Of a stretch of 64,000 bases of DNA, positions 6,119 through 22,564 are shown piece by piece; positions within the stretch are counted from its first letter, which is position 1; each line of letters opens with the position of its first letter. A model generated the notes under the pieces. The model ran no database searches, was not told the origin of the DNA, and worked only from the letters and a program-made list of their open reading frames with translations. The translations under genes and the position numbers were made by a program. Source of the stretch: Gammaproteobacteria bacterium RIFCSPHIGHO2_12_FULL_63_22 (GTDB lineage Bacteria > Pseudomonadota > Gammaproteobacteria > Xanthomonadales > Xanthomonadaceae); contig MGYJ01000019.1 of assembly GCA_001801685.1 (NCBI GenBank), positions 1 to 64,000 on the forward strand, in the 5' to 3' direction.

Positions 6119-7657
6119 ATGAAGTTCCCGTCAATCGTGTTGAAGGCCATTCTCGGCGTCGCCGTGCTGGCCATTTCCGCTACCAGCTTTGCCAGTCCCG
6201 TACAGGAAGTTGATACGGCCCGCGCCCGCGAAACCTTCCCGGGCAAGGAGTGGCAACGCGTCGCATCGCCCGAGTCGGTGGGTTACTCCAGCCGGCGCCT
6301 GCAGGCGGTGACGGCCTATCTGCAATCGATCGACACCACGGCCGTGCATGTAAGCCTGGGCGGCAAGACGCTGTTCGAGTACGGCGACCTGGGCCACCAG
6401 AGTTACCTGGCGTCGGCACGCAAGTCGTTCCTGGCGGCGCTGTACGGCAAGTACGTTGCCAGTGGGCAGATCCGGCTGGATGCATCCCTTGCGGAGCTGG
6501 GCATCACTGACGTCGGTGGGCTGTTGCCGCGCGAAACCACGGCGACCATCGGGGATGTGCTGGGCGCGCGATCCGGCGTCTACCACCCGGCCTCCAATCC
6601 CGGCGACTCCACCGGCAGTGCGCCGCCGCGCGGCTCGCAGTCGCCGGGCGACTTCTACCTCTACAACAACTGGGACTTCAACGTCGCCGGCACGATCTTC
6701 GAGAAACTCAGCGGCAAGGAGCTGTTCGCGGCGCTGCAAGCCGACATCGCCGCGCCCATCGGCATGCAGGACTTCAAGCTGGACCTGCAGCAGAAGCTGG
6801 GCGATGCCTCGCGCTCCGAGCACATGGCGTACCACATGACGCTGTCGACGCGGGACATGGCGCGCTTCGGGTTGCTGATGCTGCGCGGCGGTCGCTGGAA
6901 CGGCGACCAGGTCATTCCGGAAGACTGGGTTCGCAAGTCGACCGGCCTGGTCACGCCGATGAACGAAATGAACCCGCCGAACTACCGCAGCCTGGCCACC
7001 GGCGATCGCTGGGGCTACGGCTACATGTGGTGGGTGTGGGACGCGCCCGCCAGCAAGGGCCCGTTCGCAGGCGCGTACAGCGCCATGGGCGCGGGCGGCC
7101 AGTACATCACCGTGCTGCCGGCGCTGGACATGGTGATCACCCACAAGACCGACCCTGATGGCGGAGAAGGACTGGATCCGGCGCAGGTCTCGTCCGGCCA
7201 GTTCGGTGCACTGGTGCGGATGCTGATCGCGGCCAAGATCGTGCCGGGCGAATCGCTCGCGCCGCGCGTGCCGCCGTCCGCCGCCGAATCCGCGGCGCTG
7301 AAGCAACTGCGGGAGGGCGAGGTCGCCGGCGGCATCAAGGCCATGCTCGCGGCGCATGCCGAGTCGCCGATCCCGCCTGCCCGCGAGGGGCGCCTGAACA
7401 TGATGGGTTACCAGTACAGCGCACAGAAGAAGCCGCAGGACGCGATCGCCATCTTCGAAATGGTGACGCAGCTGTTCCCGACGTCAGCCAATGCGTGGGA
7501 CAGCCTGGGCGAGGCGAAGCTGGCGGCAGGTGACAAGGCCGGCGCGAAGGCCTGCTACCAACGCAGTCTGGAGTTGGCGGAGCGCTCGACCGAGCTGATC
7601 CCGGAAACGCGCACGATGCTGCGCGACAATGCGCGCAAGGCGTTGGAGGACTTGTGA
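6119..7657 (+). CDS. Exported S12 serine hydrolase (beta-lactamase family) with TPR-like tail
   Basis: 512 residues from ATG 6119, which has AAGGAA about 11 nt upstream and a Sec signal peptide (MKFPSIVLKAILGVAVLAIS, cleavage near SFA). The serine beta-lactamase/esterase fold shows SARK at 99-102 (nucleophile Ser99, base Lys102), the YNN motif at 182-184 and a C-terminal GAGGQYITV strand. After about residue 420 a single TPR-like unit follows (QDAIAIFEMVTQLFPTSANA, then AWDSLGEA). The same layout recurs in the minus-strand gene ending at 25155. The stop overlaps the start of the next gene (GTGA), so the two are probably co-translated. Likely an esterase or D-aminopeptidase-like enzyme; substrate unknown. 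Confidence 0.85.
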   Translation: MKFPSIVLKAILGVAVLAISATSFASPVQEVDTARARETFPGKEWQRVASPESVGYSSRRLQAVTAYLQSIDTTAVHVSLGGKTLFEYGDLGHQSYLASARKSFLAALYGKYVASGQIRLDASLAELGITDVGGLLPRETTATIGDVLGARSGVYHPASNPGDSTGSAPPRGSQSPGDFYLYNNWDFNVAGTIFEKLSGKELFAALQADIAAPIGMQDFKLDLQQKLGDASRSEHMAYHMTLSTRDMARFGLLMLRGGRWNGDQVIPEDWVRKSTGLVTPMNEMNPPNYRSLATGDRWGYGYMWWVWDAPASKGPFAGAYSAMGAGGQYITVLPALDMVITHKTDPDGGEGLDPAQVSSGQFGALVRMLIAAKIVPGESLAPRVPPSAAESAALKQLREGEVAGGIKAMLAAHAESPIPPAREGRLNMMGYQYSAQKKPQDAIAIFEMVTQLFPTSANAWDSLGEAKLAAGDKAGAKACYQRSLELAERSTELIPETRTMLRDNARKALEDL

Positions 7658-8775
7658 GACGGGAAGACGGAGGGCGGGGCACTCTAGCCCATGCGGGGAT
7701 GACCGGCGCTTCGCGCGCGTTCGGAAAATTCCTGCTCGCGCTGACGCTGGTGTTCGCCTGTCTACCAGCCTTTGGCGCTACCGCGGAGTCTGGAACGCCG
7801 GCCAAGGGACAGGTGTCGGCGCCAGGCGATCCCGTCAGCGCGATCATCGAGGCATTCTCCGGAGCACGCGTGGTTGCGCTAGGCGAAAGTCATGGGCACC
7901 AGGAGTTTCATTCGCTGGTGATCGAGGTGCTTGAAAGTCCCAAAGCCCCGGGCGTGATCAATGACATCGCCGTGGAGTGGGGCAATGCCAAGTATCAGGA
8001 GGTGGCTGATCGGTACGTTTCGGGCCAAGACGTAAGCCGTGCCGAACTGGTCCAGGTATGGCGCAACACGATCGTGTCGCCAAATACTGTATGGGACGCG
8101 CCTGTCTACGAAGCGTTCTTCAGCGCAGTGAGGAGGATCAACGCGCATCTACCCGCAACGTCGCGGTACCGCGTGCTGCTGGCCGATTCTCCGGTGGACT
8201 GGGCCGAGGTCAGAACGGTGGCTGACCTGAAGCCCTACTTCGATCGGGCCATGTCGATGGCGGACGTGGTCCGGAGCGAATCGCTGGAACTGGGGCGCAA
8301 CTGCCTTTTCCTGGCCGGGGGACTGCATGTTTCGCACCGGTCGCGGACGTTCCTCAACAGGAATGGCGTTGTCACCGCCGAGCAGACTCCCGTGGGTTGG
8401 CTGGATTTCTACCATCCGGGCTCGACCTATTCGGTGCAGTCCATGGGCAGGGCCAGCGATCTTGGTCTGAACGAGCTGGTCGCTGCTGGCGCGCCTGAGT
8501 TCCATGCAATGGCGACAAGGAAGGATTTGGCGGGTATCCCTGCCAACAAGACCCACACCTTGCGCAAGAACGACGGTTCACCGGTCGATTCCTACCCGAA
8601 CGCGCGGTTGGGTGACCTGGTCGATGCGGTCATCACCTGGAACCAAGGCAGTCTTACCTTCCCCGACGCAGAGGCGGCGACGTATGCCGAAGAGGACTAT
8701 TGGCGGGAACTCAATCGACGCAGCCAGTTGCTGGGTCGGAGAGATATGGACCCTTCCTTGAGAAAGGCGAAATAG
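7654..8775 (+). CDS. Exported GExH-domain protein (erythromycin esterase / ChaN-like)
   Basis: 373 residues. GTG 7654 overlaps the preceding stop and has GGAGG just upstream; ATG 7699 would give a shorter, more typical signal peptide (hydrophobic core KFLLALTLVFACLPAFG). The conserved part begins VVALGESHGHQEFH (GESH at 77-80, H86), followed by an acidic strand VEWGNAKYQEVADRYV and a DSPVDWAEVRT segment. All three blocks recur in the N-half of the lipoprotein at 22650-24701. The GExH pattern resembles the EreA/ChaN/TIKI group of metal-dependent hydrolases or haem-binding proteins, but similarity is limited to motifs. Function unknown; probably periplasmic. Confidence 0.6.
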   Translation: MRREDGGRGTLAHAGMTGASRAFGKFLLALTLVFACLPAFGATAESGTPAKGQVSAPGDPVSAIIEAFSGARVVALGESHGHQEFHSLVIEVLESPKAPGVINDIAVEWGNAKYQEVADRYVSGQDVSRAELVQVWRNTIVSPNTVWDAPVYEAFFSAVRRINAHLPATSRYRVLLADSPVDWAEVRTVADLKPYFDRAMSMADVVRSESLELGRNCLFLAGGLHVSHRSRTFLNRNGVVTAEQTPVGWLDFYHPGSTYSVQSMGRASDLGLNELVAAGAPEFHAMATRKDLAGIPANKTHTLRKNDGSPVDSYPNARLGDLVDAVITWNQGSLTFPDAEAATYAEEDYWRELNRRSQLLGRRDMDPSLRKAK

Positions 8776-14658: not shown

Positions 14659-14685
14659 GCGCAACCGGCTTTCGGCCGGGGCTCA
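14656..14685. terminator. Shared hairpin between convergent genes, built on both stop codons
   Basis: TGAGC (14656-14660, starting with the plus-strand stop TGA) pairs with GCTCA (14681-14685, which contains the minus-strand stop). Inside, CCGGC (14665-14669) pairs with GCCGG (14675-14679) around a TTTCG loop. No T-run follows on either side, so it is at best a weak or Rho-assisted bidirectional end. Confidence 0.5.
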
Positions 14686-15231
14686 ATCGTCGCCTGCTGC
14701 ATCCGCCGGCAACAGGTCCTTTGGCAGCGGCGACGTCGGCGTTTCCACGATGCCGACGTTGGACACGATCCACCAGCGTTCGCCGTCGTTGAGCAACTGG
14801 AAATGGTTCAATCCCCGCATCAATGGCTTTTCGTCGCTGCGGCGCAGGCGTATTTCGAAACTGCTCATCACCGAGGCCATCAGGCCGTGCCGCTCCACGC
14901 GCGTGACCAGCGGGATCTCGTGGAAGCCGGTGGCCGCGTAGGCGGTTTCGGTCTGGGTGACCAGGTCTTCGCTGCCCATGCCGATGATGCCGCTGCCGAT
15001 CTTTGAGTCCATCGCCAATGACATGCGCGCACCCTCCAGAAAAAGCGCGCGGTAGCGATCCCAGTTGCGTTTTGCGCCGGCATCGGCGGAGATGGTTTCG
15101 TAAAGCGCCTGCACGATGGCCTCGGGGGATTCCCAGTCCGAGCGGGCTGCATGGGCGGTGCCGGCCAGGCCAAGCATGAGGCCGGCGGCCAGCAGGCGAC
15201 GGGTCACGATGCGATGGAACGTCAGGTTCAT
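14683..15231 (-). CDS. Exported SnoaL/NTF2-like protein
   Basis: 182 residues from ATG 15231, with GGGAG about 8 nt upstream; a GTG at 15237 overlaps the preceding stop as an alternative. It has a signal peptide (RRLLAAGLMLGLAGTAHA) followed by an alpha+beta cone fold of about 150 residues (AIVQALYETISADAG, RYRALFLEGARMSL, a late WWIVSNVGIVE strand), typical of SnoaL-like proteins. No catalytic residues stand out. It lies downstream of, and is probably translationally coupled to, the amidohydrolase gene. Likely a periplasmic ligand-binding or small catalytic partner. Confidence 0.7.
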   Translation of the reverse strand: MNLTFHRIVTRRLLAAGLMLGLAGTAHAARSDWESPEAIVQALYETISADAGAKRNWDRYRALFLEGARMSLAMDSKIGSGIIGMGSEDLVTQTETAYAATGFHEIPLVTRVERHGLMASVMSSFEIRLRRSDEKPLMRGLNHFQLLNDGERWWIVSNVGIVETPTSPLPKDLLPADAAGDD

Positions 15232-15233
15232 GG

Positions 15234-16670
15234 TCACTCTCCCTTGAGTCGGTTGATCGCCTCGGTGGCGAGCAGTTGGCCGTCGAGCACGACCGCGTGG
15301 ATGCCGCGCGTGCGTTGGATGTCGTCCAGCGGATTGGCATCGAGCACCACGAGGTCGGCCTCGAAACCGGGGGCGATGCGGCCCAGGCGATCACCGGCGC
15401 CCAGCGCCTGCGCGGCATTACGGGTTGCGGCCAACAGGATCCGCGATGGCGGCACGCCGGCATCGGCCAGCAGCTGCATTTCGCGATGCAGGCTGATGCC
15501 GGGCGCAATCCACGGGTTGCTCATGTCCGTGCCCACGGTCATCCGCGCATCGGTGGCGTAAAGCCGCGCTGCCATGCGCTGCACCTTCGGCCACACGGCG
15601 CGGGCGCGCTGGAAGTCCTCGGACTTCCAGCCGATGGCGAAGGTGAACCACCCGGTCCAGTTGGCCAGCAGGCGCGGATGGGCATAGCGACGTGCGTCGT
15701 CCTGGTACGGGTTTTCCTGGTCCTGGACGAAGGCGGCGTGGAAGGCGACAAGGGTGGCGTCGAACACTGGACGGTGCTTTTGGAAGGCAGCCACGAGCCG
15801 ATCGGCCTGGGGGCCGTCGGGATCGAAGTGTTCCCACCATTCGAAGAACGAGTAGGTACCCGCGCGCGCTTTGCCCTGCCAGGCAGCGCGCTGTTCCGGC
15901 GCCAACAGGTCGGGGCTCAACGGCATCATGTGGACGATGCCGTCCAGCCCCATCGCCAGCGCATCGGGCCACGCAATATTGTCCAGGTGCGCGACGGCGG
16001 GGCGGCCATGCCGATGCGCGGCGTCGATGCCTGCTTTCAACAACTCCGGAGACAAACCGGCGTAGAGCTTGATCCAGGCGGCCCCGGCCTCGACCTGTGC
16101 GTTCACCACCTGCTCAATCTCCCCGGGGCTGCGCGCCGCCGTGGCCAATCCAGGCAAATCGGCGTTGTTGATCACCGGGCCGGCGTCGAACGATTCCGGC
16201 CCGACCCATTCCGCCGCATCCAGGCGTGCCTTGTAGCGGGCGGCCGCTTGCAGGTCGCCGCCGGGGTTACGCAGCGTGGTGACGCCAAATGCGACCAGGC
16301 GCTTGGCGTTGTGTTCGGCGATGCCGTCGTCGGCCAACGCCTGCATGGTGGCCCGACCGCGCTCGCGCTTGATTTCCAAAGGGCCCAGGGTGAGGTGGGC
16401 GTGCATGTCGATCAGGCCCGGCATCACGTAGCGGCCCTGCAGATCCACTGCGCGGGCATTGCGCAAGCAGGCCTTGTCGCCCGCCTTGGCGATGCGGGTG
16501 AGTCGCTTGCCTTCCATCCGCACGCAGCGGGGCGCGCTGACGCGATTGTGTTCGGCCTCGACGATGTGCACGTTGTTGAGGGCCAGCGCGCCCTCGGTGG
16601 GCTGGGCGTTCGCAAGCGCGGGCAAAAATGCAGCCAGAAGCAGTGGCCATACAGGGTTGGAGCGTCGCAT
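15234..16670 (-). CDS. Exported amidohydrolase (imidazolonepropionase/prolidase-like)
   Basis: 478 residues with a signal peptide (VWPLLLAAFLPALANAQ). This is an amidohydrolase-superfamily TIM barrel: metal motif HAH at 90-92 in GLIDMHAHLTLG, the WIKLYAGL segment (possible carboxylated Lys), VAHLDN, and the late metal Asp in TVGTDMSNP, followed by the family C-terminal strand PGFEADLVVLDANPLDDI. That ending recurs almost exactly in the fusion at 19482-22103. Exported members include Xaa-Pro and other dipeptidases. It is transcribed from one arm of the divergent ECF promoter at 16705-16732, with the SnoaL-like gene overlapping its end. Confidence 0.87.
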   Translation of the reverse strand: MRRSNPVWPLLLAAFLPALANAQPTEGALALNNVHIVEAEHNRVSAPRCVRMEGKRLTRIAKAGDKACLRNARAVDLQGRYVMPGLIDMHAHLTLGPLEIKRERGRATMQALADDGIAEHNAKRLVAFGVTTLRNPGGDLQAAARYKARLDAAEWVGPESFDAGPVINNADLPGLATAARSPGEIEQVVNAQVEAGAAWIKLYAGLSPELLKAGIDAAHRHGRPAVAHLDNIAWPDALAMGLDGIVHMMPLSPDLLAPEQRAAWQGKARAGTYSFFEWWEHFDPDGPQADRLVAAFQKHRPVFDATLVAFHAAFVQDQENPYQDDARRYAHPRLLANWTGWFTFAIGWKSEDFQRARAVWPKVQRMAARLYATDARMTVGTDMSNPWIAPGISLHREMQLLADAGVPPSRILLAATRNAAQALGAGDRLGRIAPGFEADLVVLDANPLDDIQRTRGIHAVVLDGQLLATEAINRLKGE

Positions 16671-16704: not shown

Positions 16705-16732
16705 TAGTCAGCAGTGCGGGGGGATTTCTTAC
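16705..16732 (-). promoter_or_regulatory. ECF-type promoter of the amidohydrolase operon
   Basis: On the minus strand GTAAGAAA (16725-16732) is followed by 15 nt and GACTA (16705-16709). The identical bipartite element, in both halves and in spacing, is repeated on the plus strand at 16757-16784 in front of the ECF sigma gene. It lies 35 nt upstream of the ATG at 16670. The -35/-10 assignment is inference from ECF promoter architecture. Confidence 0.65.
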
Positions 16733-16756
16733 GCAAAAAGAATATTCTCCCCCGGT

Positions 16757-16784
16757 GTAAGAAACGTTTCCCTGGCAGCGACTA
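16757..16784 (+). promoter_or_regulatory. Autoregulatory ECF-type promoter of the sigma/anti-sigma pair
   Basis: GTAAGAAA (16757-16764), 15 nt, then GACTA (16780-16784), mirroring the element at 16705-16732. The GTAAGAAA boxes are the inner elements of a large inverted arrangement centred near 16745. ECF sigma genes usually transcribe themselves, so the match with the neighbouring operon suggests a shared regulon. The ATG of the sigma gene lies 54 nt downstream. Confidence 0.65.
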
Positions 16785-16838: not shown

Positions 16839-17318
16839 ATGCATCCACTCTGGCCAAACGTCCAAGCCTTCCATCCGCAGCTCTGGCGCGCGGTGTGCGG
16901 CTATGAGCTCAATCCCGCCGTGCGCGAGGAGTTGCTGCAGGACGTGCTGCTGGCGATCTGGGAGAGCCTGCCGCGGCTTCGCGATCCGGCCTTGCTACTT
17001 CCCTTCGTGCTGCGCATCGCCCACAACCTGGGCGCCAGCCACGTGCGTTCTGAAACACGCATGCCCCTGCCAGTGCCGTTTGACGAGAATTTGCACGACG
17101 TAGCGGACTCCGGTGGCGGCAGTGCACACACGCAGTGGCTGTTCGAGGCGATGACAACGCTTCCTCTCAACCTCCGGCAGGCGCTGATGCTGCAATTGGA
17201 GGGTTTCGACTACCAGGAAATCGCCGACATGCTGGGAATCAGCGCCGAGAACGTGGGCGTACGCCTGCATCGCGCCCGCCAACGCCTGAAGGCGCTGTCC
17301 ACGCAGGAGAACACCTGA
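16839..17318 (+). CDS. ECF-type RNA polymerase sigma factor
   Basis: 159 residues from ATG 16839. Sigma region 2 is visible at about 20-75 (REELLQDVLLAIWESLPRLR, then FVLRIAHNLGASHVRSE), and region 4 at about 110-150 (LPLNLRQALMLQLEGFDYQE, IADMLGISAENVGVRLHRAR). There is no region 1 or 3, as expected of the ECF class. The stop overlaps the start of the next gene (TGATG), which encodes a membrane protein likely to hold the factor inactive. Its probable targets are its own promoter and the divergent amidohydrolase operon. The inducing signal is unknown. Confidence 0.88.
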   Translation: MHPLWPNVQAFHPQLWRAVCGYELNPAVREELLQDVLLAIWESLPRLRDPALLLPFVLRIAHNLGASHVRSETRMPLPVPFDENLHDVADSGGGSAHTQWLFEAMTTLPLNLRQALMLQLEGFDYQEIADMLGISAENVGVRLHRARQRLKALSTQENT

Positions 17319-17884
17319 TGAAATTCGACGAGCTGCTGAAAGAAGCATGGCTGGCCGAGAGCCGCCCACCCTCGCCGCCTCAGGACCTTACACGTCGCGC
17401 ACGACGGCAGCAGTACGGTCATCGCCTGCAGCGTGCCGCGGAAGTGGCATTGACCCTGGTGGCGGTGCTGCTCTTCGGCCAGGCGCTGGTCAGCGAACGC
17501 ATCGATCCTTCGCATTGGTTGCTGATGCCGTTCTTCGTGGTGTTCCTGCCCATCGCCTGGGCCATCGTGCTGCGCGCGCCGCGACGACATCTGCGGGACG
17601 CCAGCGAGCGGGCCAGCACCTACGCCAGGCTGAGGTTGTCGCAGCTACGCACGGGACTGCGCGACCTCTGGCTTGCGCGCGCAACCGCGTGGGCGCTGCT
17701 CGCCTATGCGTTGGCCGCCAACGTCGTGGCGTGGCTGCTGGCCGGCCCGGACTGGCACAACGCGGGACTGTTCCTGCTGGCATCCGCCGTTGTGTGGTTC
17801 GGCGCCACGCTATGGCTGAGCGGCAGGCTGCGTCGCCAATGGCTGCGGGAATACCGCGCGGTGCGACGCCTGGTCAGTGGATGA
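17318..17884 (+). CDS. Membrane protein, probable anti-sigma factor
   Basis: 188 residues from ATG 17318, with AGGAG upstream and overlapping the sigma gene stop. A cytoplasmic N-terminal stretch of about 45 residues (KFDELLKEAWLAESRPPSPP) precedes four hydrophobic segments: near 46-66, 70-88, 125-145 and 150-167. The C-terminus is basic. No zinc-binding HxxxCxxC motif is visible. The anti-sigma role rests on position and overlap with the ECF gene, not on recognised sequence. Its last 75 bp overlap the 3' end of the convergent peptidase gene. Confidence 0.6.
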   Translation: MKFDELLKEAWLAESRPPSPPQDLTRRARRQQYGHRLQRAAEVALTLVAVLLFGQALVSERIDPSHWLLMPFFVVFLPIAWAIVLRAPRRHLRDASERASTYARLRLSQLRTGLRDLWLARATAWALLAYALAANVVAWLLAGPDWHNAGLFLLASAVVWFGATLWLSGRLRRQWLREYRAVRRLVSG

Positions 17885-19321
17885 CGTCCTGCGATACCGC
17901 TCCGCCAGCTCGGCTGCAGACTCGCGTCCCAGCATGAACTCAGTGGATGCCTTGCCATTCCCGAACCAATCGCGAAGGAACGCATCGCATACGCCCCGGC
18001 AGCGGGCGCGAACCTCGTCTTCAAGTGCGTCGAACGAAGCCACCTTATCCCTCGCGAGAAGCCCGCGAAGCACCTGATCGACCGCCGCCTCTCCCATCAA
18101 TTGCTCCATGACGAGGAGGGACCACGCGCCCTTGCTGTAGCTGGCGTCGCCCAGCTCCAGCGTGCCGTACTCCCGGAACGAGGCGCCGCCCAGCTCTGGT
18201 CGTTTCGAGAGCACCTTGGCGAATCGCGCTCGCAGGCCGTTGGCCAGGGCCGTGGCCGCTTCGTCTCCCTGGAGCGCGCGAGTGGCTCCCAGCTCGAGAT
18301 AGGTGGCGACGGCCTCGTCGAACCAGCGCGTACGCGCGAGGTCGCTCGAAGTGGAGATCCTCCAGCCATGCGCCAACTCGTGGAACAGTTCGTGCAGGCT
18401 GGCAGCGTCGGTGAACGCGGCACTCTCCTGGAGCAGGTAGCCGTCGCCGGCTTGTGATCCAAAGCCCGCGGGAACCTCGATGACCTGGAACTCGCCGCCC
18501 GCCACGTCGCCGAGGCGTGATTGGAAGTAGTGTCGGGCAGCGCCCAGCTGGACCGCCAGTCGGCGCGCACCGGCAGCGTGGCCGGGCAACACATGCACCA
18601 GCAGGCCTTCCTGCTCGACCTGCTCGAAGGGCGCGACGGCAATGTCCATACGCGAGGACTTGCCGCGGGATGCGAACCGGTGGATGACACGCTCGCCCAC
18701 CGGACCGGATTCCAACCGCCGGCCGCCGCTCGCCACCGCAAGTCCGGCAGGAGCGTCCACCGACAAGGTGTAGTCCACCGGCTGCGCCTGGGCGGCGAGA
18801 TATTCCGCCCAGCGATTCCCTCCCACCAGCGGATAGTAGGCCGTCTCCGGGCGAAACAAGGTGTAGCCAGGGTCAATAGAGTCCTTCAGGTATGGCAGTA
18901 CCTCCGCATAACCCCGGAGGGCGATGGTGTACTTGATGTCGAGCACGATGGCCTGGCCTGGCCTGACAGGCTCCCGTGGCGAGACTTGGAGTCTCCGGAA
19001 CTGGAAGTTCGGGAATTCCCGAAGCCCAACCAGTTGGTCCGAGAAGCTGGCCTCGCTGCCCGGCACCGTCAGCGACTCGACGCTGCTGAGCCGATACAGC
19101 AGCAGGCTGATGCTCGATATTGGTGATATGCCAGGATTGCGGATCGTTACCCGGGCGCGCACCCTCGCCTCGCCTTCCTTTGGTTCGATCACAATGGAAA
19201 GGTCGTAGCGCAAAGGGACGGCCATCGTTTGCGGGTCCTCCGTCATGGCTTCAGCCGCGGGTTGTCCGCAGGCCACCCACAGCACCAGCAGATGGGCCAA
19301 GATCAGGGTGTGGTGTCTCAA
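17810..19321 (-). CDS. Exported M1/M61-like zinc peptidase
   Basis: 503 residues from TTG 19321, supported by AGGAG 8 nt upstream. It has a signal peptide (LILAHLLVLWVACGQPAAEA; the Cys is in a poor lipobox). The N-domain (about 30-230) resembles the beta-saddle of M1 aminopeptidases. The catalytic centre is HELFHELAHGW at 310-320: H314ELAH318 with Glu336 in RWFDEAVATYLE, a 17-residue spacing against the usual 18; HELFH at 310-314 is a second overlapping HExxH. A helical C-domain follows. Likely a periplasmic aminopeptidase or remnant. It is convergent with the anti-sigma gene and overlaps it by 75 bp. Confidence 0.78.
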   Translation of the reverse strand: MRHHTLILAHLLVLWVACGQPAAEAMTEDPQTMAVPLRYDLSIVIEPKEGEARVRARVTIRNPGISPISSISLLLYRLSSVESLTVPGSEASFSDQLVGLREFPNFQFRRLQVSPREPVRPGQAIVLDIKYTIALRGYAEVLPYLKDSIDPGYTLFRPETAYYPLVGGNRWAEYLAAQAQPVDYTLSVDAPAGLAVASGGRRLESGPVGERVIHRFASRGKSSRMDIAVAPFEQVEQEGLLVHVLPGHAAGARRLAVQLGAARHYFQSRLGDVAGGEFQVIEVPAGFGSQAGDGYLLQESAAFTDAASLHELFHELAHGWRISTSSDLARTRWFDEAVATYLELGATRALQGDEAATALANGLRARFAKVLSKRPELGGASFREYGTLELGDASYSKGAWSLLVMEQLMGEAAVDQVLRGLLARDKVASFDALEDEVRARCRGVCDAFLRDWFGNGKASTEFMLGRESAAELAERYRRTSSTDQASHRAVFPQPLATQPAAQP

Positions 19322-19481: not shown

Positions 19482-22103
19482 TCAGTCACCGCCCTCTTGC
19501 GCCCGCATCGCCGCTTCAAGCATCGCATCGAGGCGCATTCGACCCAGGTATCGGCCCCTGACAAAAACAGCATTGATCGACTTGGTATTGCGGATGTCGT
19601 CGAGCGGATTGGCATCCAGGATAATCAGGCTGCTGGCCTGGCCGGTTTCTACCTTGCCAAATTCATCCGCTTTCCCCATGAACAAGGCGGGATTCAGCGT
19701 GGCAGTCTTCAAGGCTTCCGAAGGCGTCATTCCGCCTTTCACCATCGACTGCATTTCATCGTGCAAGCTGAAGCCGGGGTAGCAGAAGGGGTTGAGTGCG
19801 TCGGTTCCCGCCAGCAATTTCACCTGGCGCTTCGACAACTCTCCCAGCAGCGAGAGTTGCAGTTCGAACAGTCGCTCATGGGCTTCGTAGTATTCCGGAC
19901 TCCTGCCCGCACCCGGGTTCCACATCTTCCGAACGGAATCCGGCAGGTATCGCATGCGCGTGTCCGCCAGGTCGGTGGTCCCTTTTCGGTGGGAGACGCT
20001 ATCCAGTACGGTGAGTGTCGGTGAAACCCACGTGTTGCTCTGCGCCAGCGCGTCAGCCACGGCCTCGAACTTCTTCCTGTCGAATGTATCGACCAGGAAT
20101 CGCGCTTTCTCGATGCGCTGGTCCCTGGTGAATTTGGCGAGATCCTGCGGCTTGCTGCTGGACGCCTCCAGGATGCCGCCGAGGTGCTCGATGCTCGCTT
20201 GCCCGGATTCGATGGCGTCCCAGATGGAAACCGAGTCTGGCAGATGCCCGGCGAACGGAACCCCGAGTTCCTTGCTCGTGCTTGCAATTGCCTTGTAGCT
20301 ATCGCGTGACAGGCGGCTATAGACCTTGATGAAATCCACGCCCTGACTGGCTTGTTCAGCGACCTCCAGTCGGGCTTCCTCGGCGTTCTTGACGCCTGAA
20401 GCCCACGGCCAACTGGGCGGACTGCCATCGACGATGTTCCCGGACGCGTAGAGGTCTGGGGCGATCAGCGATTCGGACGCGATCTTGGCCCTGATCTCCT
20501 CGATCGTGCTGGGGACGCCCCACATTTCGCGGATGCCGGTGACGCCGTTTGCAATCAGCAGCGGGTTGGAGAATTGGTGATTGAGGCTGTAGTGGAAATG
20601 CATGTCCCAAAGACCGGGGATGAGGTACTTGCGCGACCCATCAATGGTCTGCCCGCCGCCGCGAAGGGACACCTTGTGATCGTAGATGCCGACAATCCGG
20701 CTCCCGGCGATGGCCACGTATCTGCCGGATTGGATTGCACCTTTTTCAACATCGACGATGCTGATGTTTTCGATGAGGTAGTCGGCCGAAATGGCACTCG
20801 ACGTGCCGTGGCCTCCGGCGCCCTTGACGAAGCCGGCCTGCACATCGAACAGGTCCGAGGGCAGTTGCGGCCAACGCAGGCTGCTGCCATCCGGGCCGAG
20901 CCGCCGCAGCGAGTGGTCGTGGCCGTCGTACCGCTTGACGCGGATCTCGCGCCCGGCAGCAATCTCCTGCCCGAGCAGCGCGGCGGTCTCGATCGCGTCG
21001 ATGCTTTCGTCGTCCTTGCTCAATATCCACAGGGCAGGCGCCTGCATGCGGTGCAAAGCGGGCAGCGGGTCGTAGTCGTGATCGGGCAGGATGACGGCGG
21101 CGGTTGTCGCATCGGGGTGCTCGGCGAAGTCGCCCAGGCCGGAGGCCGGGAACCACGCTTCGCGGCGCACGGCCTGCATCGCCTGGTCGAAGCCTGACCA
21201 CTCGTTCGACCGCATCGCGGCGTACCACTCGGCGATGATGCCGCGCGCACGTACGACCTGCGCCTCGCTCGCACCGGCGACGCGCATCCTGCGCACCACC
21301 TCCCATTGCGATTCGCGCATCGGGCTGACCAGCGGGGCGGAGCTCGCGATGACAAAGGCCGTGTCCGGCCAACGGCTCGCCGCCAATGGGCCGATCCAGC
21401 CGCCCTGGCTATGGCCGTAGAAGCCGACCCGTGCGATGGCGGGCTGAGCGCGCAGCCAAGACGCGGCTGCGGTGGCATCGGCTGCCAGGTCGTCGAACGT
21501 GGGTGGCTTCGGCGTACTGGTAGATTCGCCGACGCCGCGTTTGTCGTAGATGAGGGCCGCGATGCCGCGCTCGGCCAAGGCACGGGCGTTGAAGCGATTG
21601 GCGTCGCGCGGTTGCGGGCCAGAGCCGTGCAGGAAGACCACGCCGGGAAACGGACCGGGTCCCTCGGGCAGCAGCAGCGAGGCACCCAGCTGCCCCGCCG
21701 CGCTCGCGATCATGACGCGCTGTTCCCGGAGCGCCGGCGCGGGATCCACCCGCGTCATCGCCATCGATGCGTCCTCGCCGAACCGGGGATCCGACCAGGC
21801 GCCAGCGAGCCTGCCATCGCGGTATGCCAGCGTCATCCGTTGCGTGCCGGAATCGGACTGGAACTCCAGCACGATCCGCTCGCCATCGACGCTGACAGAT
21901 CTTGCCGGCCAGTCGAGCACGCCGACCTGCGGCAGGCTCAGGCTGGCGCCGTCCTGCTTCAGTTCGATGGCGACTGCAGTACTTTCGGTTGCACTGCGCG
22001 CGGCGCCGGACCATCGGCCTTGGGGCGGCTCCGCGGCATTGGCAGGCCCTGCTGCGGCGAGCATGGAGGTGACGATCAGGGTCAGGGTGTGAAGACGATT
22101 CAT
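19482..22103 (-). CDS. Fusion of an alpha/beta hydrolase and an amidohydrolase, exported
   Basis: 873 residues from ATG 22103, which overlaps the GNAT stop (ATGA); ATG 22115 is an alternative. The signal peptide spans 1-23 (LHTLTLIVTSMLAAAGPANA). The first enzyme (about 125-440) is an alpha/beta hydrolase with oxyanion loop FLHGSGPQ, nucleophile GHSQG at 230-234 (Ser232) and a late SKDDE/DGHDH region for Asp and His. The second (about 455-873) is a metal amidohydrolase with HFH at 502-504 in GLWDMHFHYS, a FIKVYSRL Lys, GHLPDS, LAGTDALNP, and the closing ILDANPLDDI seen in the gene at 15234. Both halves have intact catalytic motifs, so a two-step hydrolysis is plausible. Confidence 0.83.
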   Translation of the reverse strand: MNRLHTLTLIVTSMLAAAGPANAAEPPQGRWSGAARSATESTAVAIELKQDGASLSLPQVGVLDWPARSVSVDGERIVLEFQSDSGTQRMTLAYRDGRLAGAWSDPRFGEDASMAMTRVDPAPALREQRVMIASAAGQLGASLLLPEGPGPFPGVVFLHGSGPQPRDANRFNARALAERGIAALIYDKRGVGESTSTPKPPTFDDLAADATAAASWLRAQPAIARVGFYGHSQGGWIGPLAASRWPDTAFVIASSAPLVSPMRESQWEVVRRMRVAGASEAQVVRARGIIAEWYAAMRSNEWSGFDQAMQAVRREAWFPASGLGDFAEHPDATTAAVILPDHDYDPLPALHRMQAPALWILSKDDESIDAIETAALLGQEIAAGREIRVKRYDGHDHSLRRLGPDGSSLRWPQLPSDLFDVQAGFVKGAGGHGTSSAISADYLIENISIVDVEKGAIQSGRYVAIAGSRIVGIYDHKVSLRGGGQTIDGSRKYLIPGLWDMHFHYSLNHQFSNPLLIANGVTGIREMWGVPSTIEEIRAKIASESLIAPDLYASGNIVDGSPPSWPWASGVKNAEEARLEVAEQASQGVDFIKVYSRLSRDSYKAIASTSKELGVPFAGHLPDSVSIWDAIESGQASIEHLGGILEASSSKPQDLAKFTRDQRIEKARFLVDTFDRKKFEAVADALAQSNTWVSPTLTVLDSVSHRKGTTDLADTRMRYLPDSVRKMWNPGAGRSPEYYEAHERLFELQLSLLGELSKRQVKLLAGTDALNPFCYPGFSLHDEMQSMVKGGMTPSEALKTATLNPALFMGKADEFGKVETGQASSLIILDANPLDDIRNTKSINAVFVRGRYLGRMRLDAMLEAAMRAQEGGD

Positions 22104-22564
22104 CGGTTCCGCCATTCGTCATCAAGGGGCTGGTGGGGGTCCGCAGCGAGGGTCAGCCGGAGCACCTCGAAGCCGGTCTGGTCATGCGTGCTCCGGGAAA
22201 GTTGTTCGAATCCGAGACGCGCGTAGAAGGCCCGGCCCTGGTGGTTGCGCTCGAACACGTCCACCTCCAGTGCACCACATCTCGCCTGGGCGTGCCGGAC
22301 GAGGGCGCGGCCAATCCCGCGCTGTTGAAACCGGAAATCTACGAAGAGGGCGCCAATCTCGTTTCCGAGCAGCGACATAAAGGCCACGACGCGCCCATCT
22401 TCATCCCACACCCACGACTCCGCGACGGGCAGGTAGACCTTGGGGATGTTCACGCGCTCTGCTTCCAGAAAGGCTCGCGGCAGGAACGCATGCGCCCGCG
22501 CCGCAGCGTGGGCCCAGACATCGAGCAGGCCTTCGCAGTCGGAAGGGGTGTATGGGCGAATCAC
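22100..22564 (-). CDS. GNAT family N-acetyltransferase (YjaB-like)
   Basis: 154 residues, a complete GNAT fold: IRPYTPSDCEGLLDVW at the N-terminus, motif A FVDFRFQQRGIGRALVRHAQ (the Q-x-x-G-x-G acetyl-CoA loop), and motif B FYARLGFEQ. It resembles E. coli YjaB in its opening and in the ALFVD strand. Substrate unknown. No leader, so cytoplasmic, unlike its neighbours. It follows the lipoprotein gene after 85 bp and overlaps the next gene by 4 nt, placing it in the 26678-to-19482 minus-strand operon. Confidence 0.85.
   Translation of the reverse strand: MIRPYTPSDCEGLLDVWAHAAARAHAFLPRAFLEAERVNIPKVYLPVAESWVWDEDGRVVAFMSLLGNEIGALFVDFRFQQRGIGRALVRHAQARCGALEVDVFERNHQGRAFYARLGFEQLSRSTHDQTGFEVLRLTLAADPHQPLDDEWRNR

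Follow-up and report, generated by a model that had tools for sequence, protein, structure and literature searches.

Sigma factors of group IV, the ECF type, are now defined by the domains sigma2 and sigma4 alone, and their classical promoter carries AAC at -35 and CGT at -10, according to PMC8103513. For the -35 box, PMC6713349 describes, from the SigW and RpoE structures, contacts of R172 and R175 of SigW with G-35 and of K170 of SigW, or R171 of RpoE, with the base opposite the C of AAC. An autoregulated ECF sigma factor with a divergent target is an already known kind of system. ECF sigma factors were reportedly reclassified in 2021. Current ECF group models aside, the promoter sequence, the partner family and the closed two-promoter regulon described below were not recognized among the titles and abstract openings that represented the literature.

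Here, the locus of interest lies within a window of 64,000 nucleotides, the whole stretch of DNA that was analyzed, and consists of an ECF sigma gene and a gene for a putative membrane-bound anti-sigma factor on one side and a gene pair for an amidohydrolase and a small protein on the other (Table 1). The 80-bp region between them is very probably a bidirectional promoter of the adjacent ECF sigma factor that governs a local regulon of two promoters and one output operon.

Results

Two copies of one motif in the window

An initial annotation had placed a single motif twice, once on each strand, within 80 bp, and this was confirmed exactly: the window holds GTAAGAAA-N15-GACTA once per strand, the plus-strand copy at positions 16757 to 16784, whereas dinucleotide shuffling of the window, repeated 100 times, never gave two matches. 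The genome-wide search proposed with that annotation returned these as the sole exact copies in 4,256,130 bases, and the reversed pattern, taken as a control, had no exact match in the whole genome (4.26 Mb). The reported identity of both halves and of the spacing stood for the core, which is exact in the window, but the sites differ outside it: the divergent copy has C, not T, before GTAAGAAA, and its -10 side reads TGACT, not CGACT. The final A of GACTA had to be dropped from the motif, as it is present in only 5/23 sigma-side and 4/23 divergent sites of the comparison set described below.

Table 1. Features of the sigma locus and its divergent operon (positions in the window)
Feature	Positions	Strand	Description
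Small protein, signal-peptide-like start, second gene of divergent operon	14683..15231	-	predicted NTF2/SnoaL-like fold
Amidohydrolase, signal-peptide-like start	15234..16670	-	PF01979, 4e-23
Divergent promoter (predicted) of amidohydrolase operon	16705..16732	-	C-GTAAGAAA-N15-GACTA
24-bp core between the two GTAAGAAA -35 boxes	16733..16756	none	
Autoregulatory promoter (predicted), sigma/putative anti-sigma operon	16756..16784	+	TGTAAGAAA-N14-CGACT(A)
ECF sigma factor, 159 aa, start MHPLWP	16839..17318	+	Sigma70_r4_2 1.3e-14, Sigma70_r2 3.6e-8
Putative anti-sigma factor, 188 aa, four predicted membrane helices after short N-terminus	17318..17884	+	

Conservation of both sites upstream of orthologous sigma genes

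The comparison set comprised 23 sigma-bearing loci, namely the window and 22 others at 54 to 85% protein identity. A protein search had yielded 41 loci, 18 of them close (L029 to L046, 54 to 84% identity; hereafter the named orthologs). The 247 family genomes searched included 16 with a sigma ortholog at ≥58%, the rest stepping down clearly to ≤42%; these 16 were the window genome, 11 already among the named loci and 4 extra ones (L108, L109, L110, and L112). In the phylogenetic tree, the 23 loci formed one side of a branch with an SH-aLRT value of 100.

When the best match per strand was taken in the 170 bp that precede each sigma gene, a site was found on both strands in 23/23 loci. The sigma-side consensus, TGTAAGAAA-N14-CGACT, was exact in 22 loci and had one mismatch in the remaining one (L038), with CGACT invariant throughout. 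The divergent side was weaker and is better written GTAAGAAA-N15-[GC]ACT: GTAAGAAA-N15-GACT was exact in 10/23 loci, within one mismatch in 20/23, and within three in all, and the G of GACT was kept in 16/23 loci versus 23/23 on the sigma side. Of 11,500 shuffled versions of these 23 regions (dinucleotide shuffling), none reached ≤1 mismatch to either pattern, while ≤3 mismatches were reached by 38 for the sigma-side pattern and by 363 for the divergent one, so that the divergent sites with three mismatches (L040, L044, and L045) are individually weak. When spacings of 14 to 16 were compared (window and L029 to L054), a spacing of 15 gave the best fit for either strand of the named orthologs, the one exception being the divergent site of L044, with 16. 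The 14 bases between the boxes were only 35% identical in locus pairs with sigma identity below 70%, against which the boxes stand out as constrained. The proposal of an ECF promoter pair for this sigma factor was thereby borne out for the sites and for their strand, spacing, and position ahead of the sigma gene, all of which were kept in 23/23 loci.

It is improbable that the sigma-side site alone works for this sigma factor, the divergent copy being no more than a relic, weak or decaying, with the amidohydrolase under other control. The lower conservation of the divergent side, with its three poorly matching loci, would fit such a relic, as would the Tahibacter loci that have a divergent site without an amidohydrolase, but GTAAG is invariant on the divergent side in 23/23 loci, the window's own divergent core is exact, and the distance from the site to the amidohydrolase start is 30 to 39 nt in 17/17 measured loci.

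The gap between the two GTAAGAAA boxes measured 23, 24, and 25 bp in 7, 8, and 8 loci, respectively. Across 34 equal-length pairs with sigma identity below 70%, the core was 28% identical versus 24% expected by composition; its length is thus kept where its sequence is not. The case for a special length constraint on the core is moderate and suggestive only, because the divergent leader is also fairly constant and because the core sequence is 46 to 53% identical in closer pairs; the sigma-side leader ranged from 31 to 56. The core had a mean A+T of 0.55, compared with 0.23 for the promoter spacer. An A/T-rich UP element common to the cores was considered and set aside as not universal, since five loci (L043, L045, L046, L109, and L110) reach an A+T of only 0.24 to 0.40.

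Sister and distant sigma/membrane protein pairs

At least 48 further sister matches at 31 to 42% identity occurred among the family genomes, and the promoter comparison covered 14 of the 48 listed (L113 to L126, 36 to 42%, some of them near-duplicates). A single TGTCAGG-N-G[AT]CT promoter in the same layout lay upstream in 12 of these 14, no site was found in the other 2, and an opposite-strand match to the pattern within 390 bp occurred in 0/14.

These sisters bear on a further explanation, that the inverted pair TTTCTTAC ... GTAAGAAA serves some other, dimeric regulator as its operator and does not consist of two -35 boxes. Its arms do form an inverted repeat 23 to 25 bp apart in 23/23 loci. 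Yet GACT or a close variant follows 15 bp after each arm, with the sigma-side CGACT never varying, the sister sigma genes having such a site carry it on the sigma strand only, and a non-systematic look at the loci brought no conserved regulator gene to notice besides sigma; we therefore regard the operator as very unlikely and keep to two promoters.

Eight more distant loci (L047 to L054) extended the picture. TGTTAGG-N-GACT was present in three deltaproteobacterial or myxococcal ones, and no site was found in L049, L052, or L053. The gammaproteobacterial MAG L047, whose sigma factor is 42% identical, keeps all four genes and carries GTAATAAA-N14-GACTA on both strands, 14 bp apart, with TGTAATAAA as the -35 box on both. 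The Gemmatimonadetes MAG L054 has GTAAGAAA-N14-GACTA ahead of its sigma gene, with TGTAAGAAA at -35, and a second GTAAGAAA-N14-GACTA at 7058 to 7084 (+) starts 101 bp before a downstream ORF; this ORF (7159 to 7668), near the sigma gene, encodes 169 aa with a signal-peptide-like start and had no Pfam match. The layouts of L047 and L054 hint at a common scheme in which the sigma factor serves itself plus an exported protein. L058 was rejected as a further member: it is a fragment, 57% identical over 46 residues, of the L053 type and without such a site. L148 proved to be the same locus as L053.

Distribution of the motif and extent of the regulon

The motif also tracked the sigma gene across genomes, as expected if the initial annotation had assigned it to the right sigma factor. 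GTAAGAAA-N15-GACT was found in 20 of the 247 family genomes, of which 15 belong to the 16 that have a sigma ortholog and 5 to the 231 that lack it. The 27 matches included 21 in ortholog genomes, all 21 at the sigma locus; the other six look like background, given that the reversed control produced 21 matches over all 247 genomes. With one mismatch to the sigma-side pattern allowed, 20 of 21 matches in the 16 ortholog genomes lay at the locus, while the control gave 3. The single off-locus match (G141:C287) was therefore not taken as a sign of a wider regulon in the relatives. A wider regulon in the window genome was rejected as well: at ≤2 mismatches, the whole genome contained 9 matches, fewer than the 32 of the reversed control, and in the lack of any excess the pair stands alone. 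By close matches, which would miss weaker targets with looser motifs, the regulon is likely local and would comprise the sigma/membrane-protein operon and the divergent amidohydrolase/NTF2-fold operon.

The window genome contained no second match to this sigma factor at E≤1e-15, although it surely has less similar ECF sigma factors. That one of the latter recognizes the sites, with the adjacent sigma factor acting elsewhere, is hardly credible, for although related ECF sigma factors of the family use similar promoters (TGTCAGG-N-G[AT]CT), the motif follows this ortholog in the proportions just given and no second match at that threshold occurs in the window genome. The sigma ortholog was found in none of 12 sampled congeners of the window genome, 8 of which have a sister ECF of lower similarity at E≤1e-15; within the genus, the module therefore occurs sporadically.

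Sigma factor and -35 recognition

Assignment of the regulator to the ECF sigma factors was upheld by Sigma70 region 2 and region 4 of ECF type, with Sigma70_r2 and Sigma70_r4_2 above their Pfam cutoffs and TIGR02937 at 48.7 bits versus a cutoff of 42.9. The recognition helix reads NVGVRxHRAR in the 23 loci, NVAVRL[SG]RAR where the promoter carries TGTTAGG, and mostly NTV[ADT]QRLSRAR where it carries TGTCAGG (L118, which could not be aligned, was left out). The helix may thus covary with the -35 box, which we put forward as a hypothesis and not as a statistic because the tree needs only 2 changes of -35 class. Residues were mapped by eye onto the SigW helix: arginines of this sigma factor appear to match R172 and R175 of SigW, and at the position of SigW K170 (RpoE R171) a glycine seems to stand, which would fit the absence of AAC.

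The membrane partner

The start of the partner gene overlaps the sigma stop (ATGA) in the window, and the partner was present in 18/18 named orthologs; a co-encoded membrane protein, as expected of a membrane anti-sigma factor, is thus found here with four hydrophobic stretches. It is probably an anti-sigma factor, as first proposed, judging from its conserved downstream position and membrane topology, which hold up, while a known domain is missing: no Pfam or NCBIfam domain was detected at E 0.01, two Pfam matches at a cutoff of 1 were far below the curated scores, and a structure search with the partner returned no match at E≤0.001. The zinc-binding (ZAS) His/Cys motif is absent as well, the window partner having no cysteine and 19 sequences no invariant one. 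In the N-terminus, ahead of the membrane region, helices are predicted at 3-15 and 21-59. Arg and Lys abound in the three longer stretches that link or end the membrane helices, and the other two loops have only about 5 residues; by the positive-inside rule, almost nothing of the partner would therefore face outwards. In a profile comparison, 19 aligned partners (those of the 14 sisters and of L047, L048, L049, L052, and L053; L050, L051, and L054 were not counted) matched the window partner family at 98.7% (E 1.4e-16), versus at most 0.56% in 20 column-shuffled controls. A 503-aa ORF at 17810 to 19321 (-), M1-peptidase-like by eye and without a Pfam match, runs tail to tail into the putative anti-sigma gene, the two sharing 75 bp (17810 to 17884) at the 3' end of the latter.

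The divergent operon

The initial annotation had an exported amidohydrolase here, of which the amidohydrolase stands by its PF01979 match, and export is suggested by a signal-peptide-like N-terminus recognized by eye. H90, H92, K201, H228, H247, and D382, presumably metal ligands from what is generally known of the superfamily, were invariant in 18 sequences. The top NCBIfam model was NF051886 (Xaa-Pro dipeptidase), at 106 bits versus a cutoff of 500, and the best solved relatives were 9kov (trum-mut, 8.9e-22) and 9l6p (LlADH, 1.4e-18), with 3mtw (6e-13) also matching. For the small protein, described at first as SnoaL-like, Pfam gave no match to the window sequence up to E 1, and weak SnoaL-family matches came from no more than a few of 13 relatives; the likeness survives in the predicted fold, a model from a 13-sequence alignment (pLDDT 75) that matched NTF2/cystatin-like folds (best E 3.2e-6; 168 matches at E≤0.001).

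Among the 18 named loci, the amidohydrolase was divergent from sigma in 16 and the small protein was present in 12. The amidohydrolase was missing in the two Tahibacter loci (L045 and L046), and since these keep the divergent site, the output gene is not universal. The site persists there in altered form (GTAAGGTTT and GTAAGGAA), and a KDO transferase ORF occurs further along in L045. Near the sigma locus of the window, an 877-aa ORF at 19482 to 22115 (-) combines two domains, an alpha/beta hydrolase and a second, divergent amidohydrolase.

Discussion

The interpretation of the 80-bp region as a promoter pair is strongly supported by sequence comparison, in which paired conserved sites, their co-occurrence with the sigma gene, a recurring operon order, and no other close ortholog-linked matches were established. 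In the mechanism that we infer, recognition and the start sites would depend on this sigma factor: once free, it would bind RNA polymerase and read TGTAAGAAA-N14-CGACT on the plus strand, raising its own operon, that is, the sigma factor and the four-helix partner. It would also read the slightly weaker minus-strand copy and thereby turn on the amidohydrolase, presumably exported, and the NTF2-fold protein. The partner, acting as an anti-sigma factor, would hold the sigma factor until a cue arrives, and this cue might come from the membrane, given how little of the partner is exposed outside. The switch would probably serve mainly itself and one neighboring operon.

Beyond the initial annotation, the comparison adds the constant gap of 23 to 25 bp and a wider family of ECF sigma/four-helix pairs with related promoters (TGTCAGG and TGTTAGG). 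We also offer a broader conjecture, of which we are rather doubtful. These pairs might form an undescribed family whose partner, with a helical N-terminus of the W..Q type and hardly any part outside the membrane, may respond to the membrane itself and not to a periplasmic ligand; promoter reading might shift among TGTCAGG, TGTTAGG, and TGTAAGAAA with the recognition helix; and the divergent promoters of this branch might be a composite unit whose -35-to--35 distance of 23 to 25 bp is under selection, the polymerases sharing upstream contacts or excluding each other.

The locus offers a compact sigma/promoter pair whose recognition sequence can be specified base by base, together with a conserved output enzyme suitable for assays. 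Its rare motif and seemingly closed regulon suggest it as a candidate for an orthogonal switch, and the sister families, with their related but distinct -35 boxes, provide a natural series for changes in ECF recognition-helix specificity.

Comparison with known systems

The amidohydrolase resembles enzymes of the imidazolonepropionase/Xaa-Pro-dipeptidase type through 9kov, 9l6p, 3mtw, and NF051886, far below the cutoff of the last. A SnoaL/NTF2-like fold in the locus recalls ECF41 (SigJ) with its fused SnoaL_2 domain; here, however, the sigma factor stops after region 4 without a C-terminal SnoaL extension, and the NTF2-like protein is separate, with a signal-peptide-like start of its own. The sigma profile matched CnrH (4cxf, 4.4e-15) among 30 sigma chains, and a predicted helical N-terminus before the membrane is shared by the partner and CnrY, a class II anti-sigma factor; unlike CnrY, the partner has four membrane helices. 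As in the class I pairs RpoE/RseA of E. coli and SigW/RsiW of B. subtilis, sigma factor and membrane partner are encoded in one operon, yet the partner here has no Pfam anti-sigma domain and almost no predicted part outside the membrane, and the glycine aligned by eye with K170/R171 is what would be expected for a promoter without AAC.

In layout, the locus resembles the positively autoregulated group IV (ECF) sigma factors as described in PMC8103513, which have short regions 2 and 4, a membrane partner downstream, and their own promoter. The 159-aa sigma factor likewise consists of regions 2 and 4 only, joined by a short linker, and a predicted autoregulatory promoter common to its targets was found at the sequence level in 23/23 loci. 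In contrast to the classical members, AAC and CGT are absent, the sites of the 23 loci reading TGTAAGAAA and CGACT instead, and the apparent regulon is the sigma operon itself plus one divergent operon.
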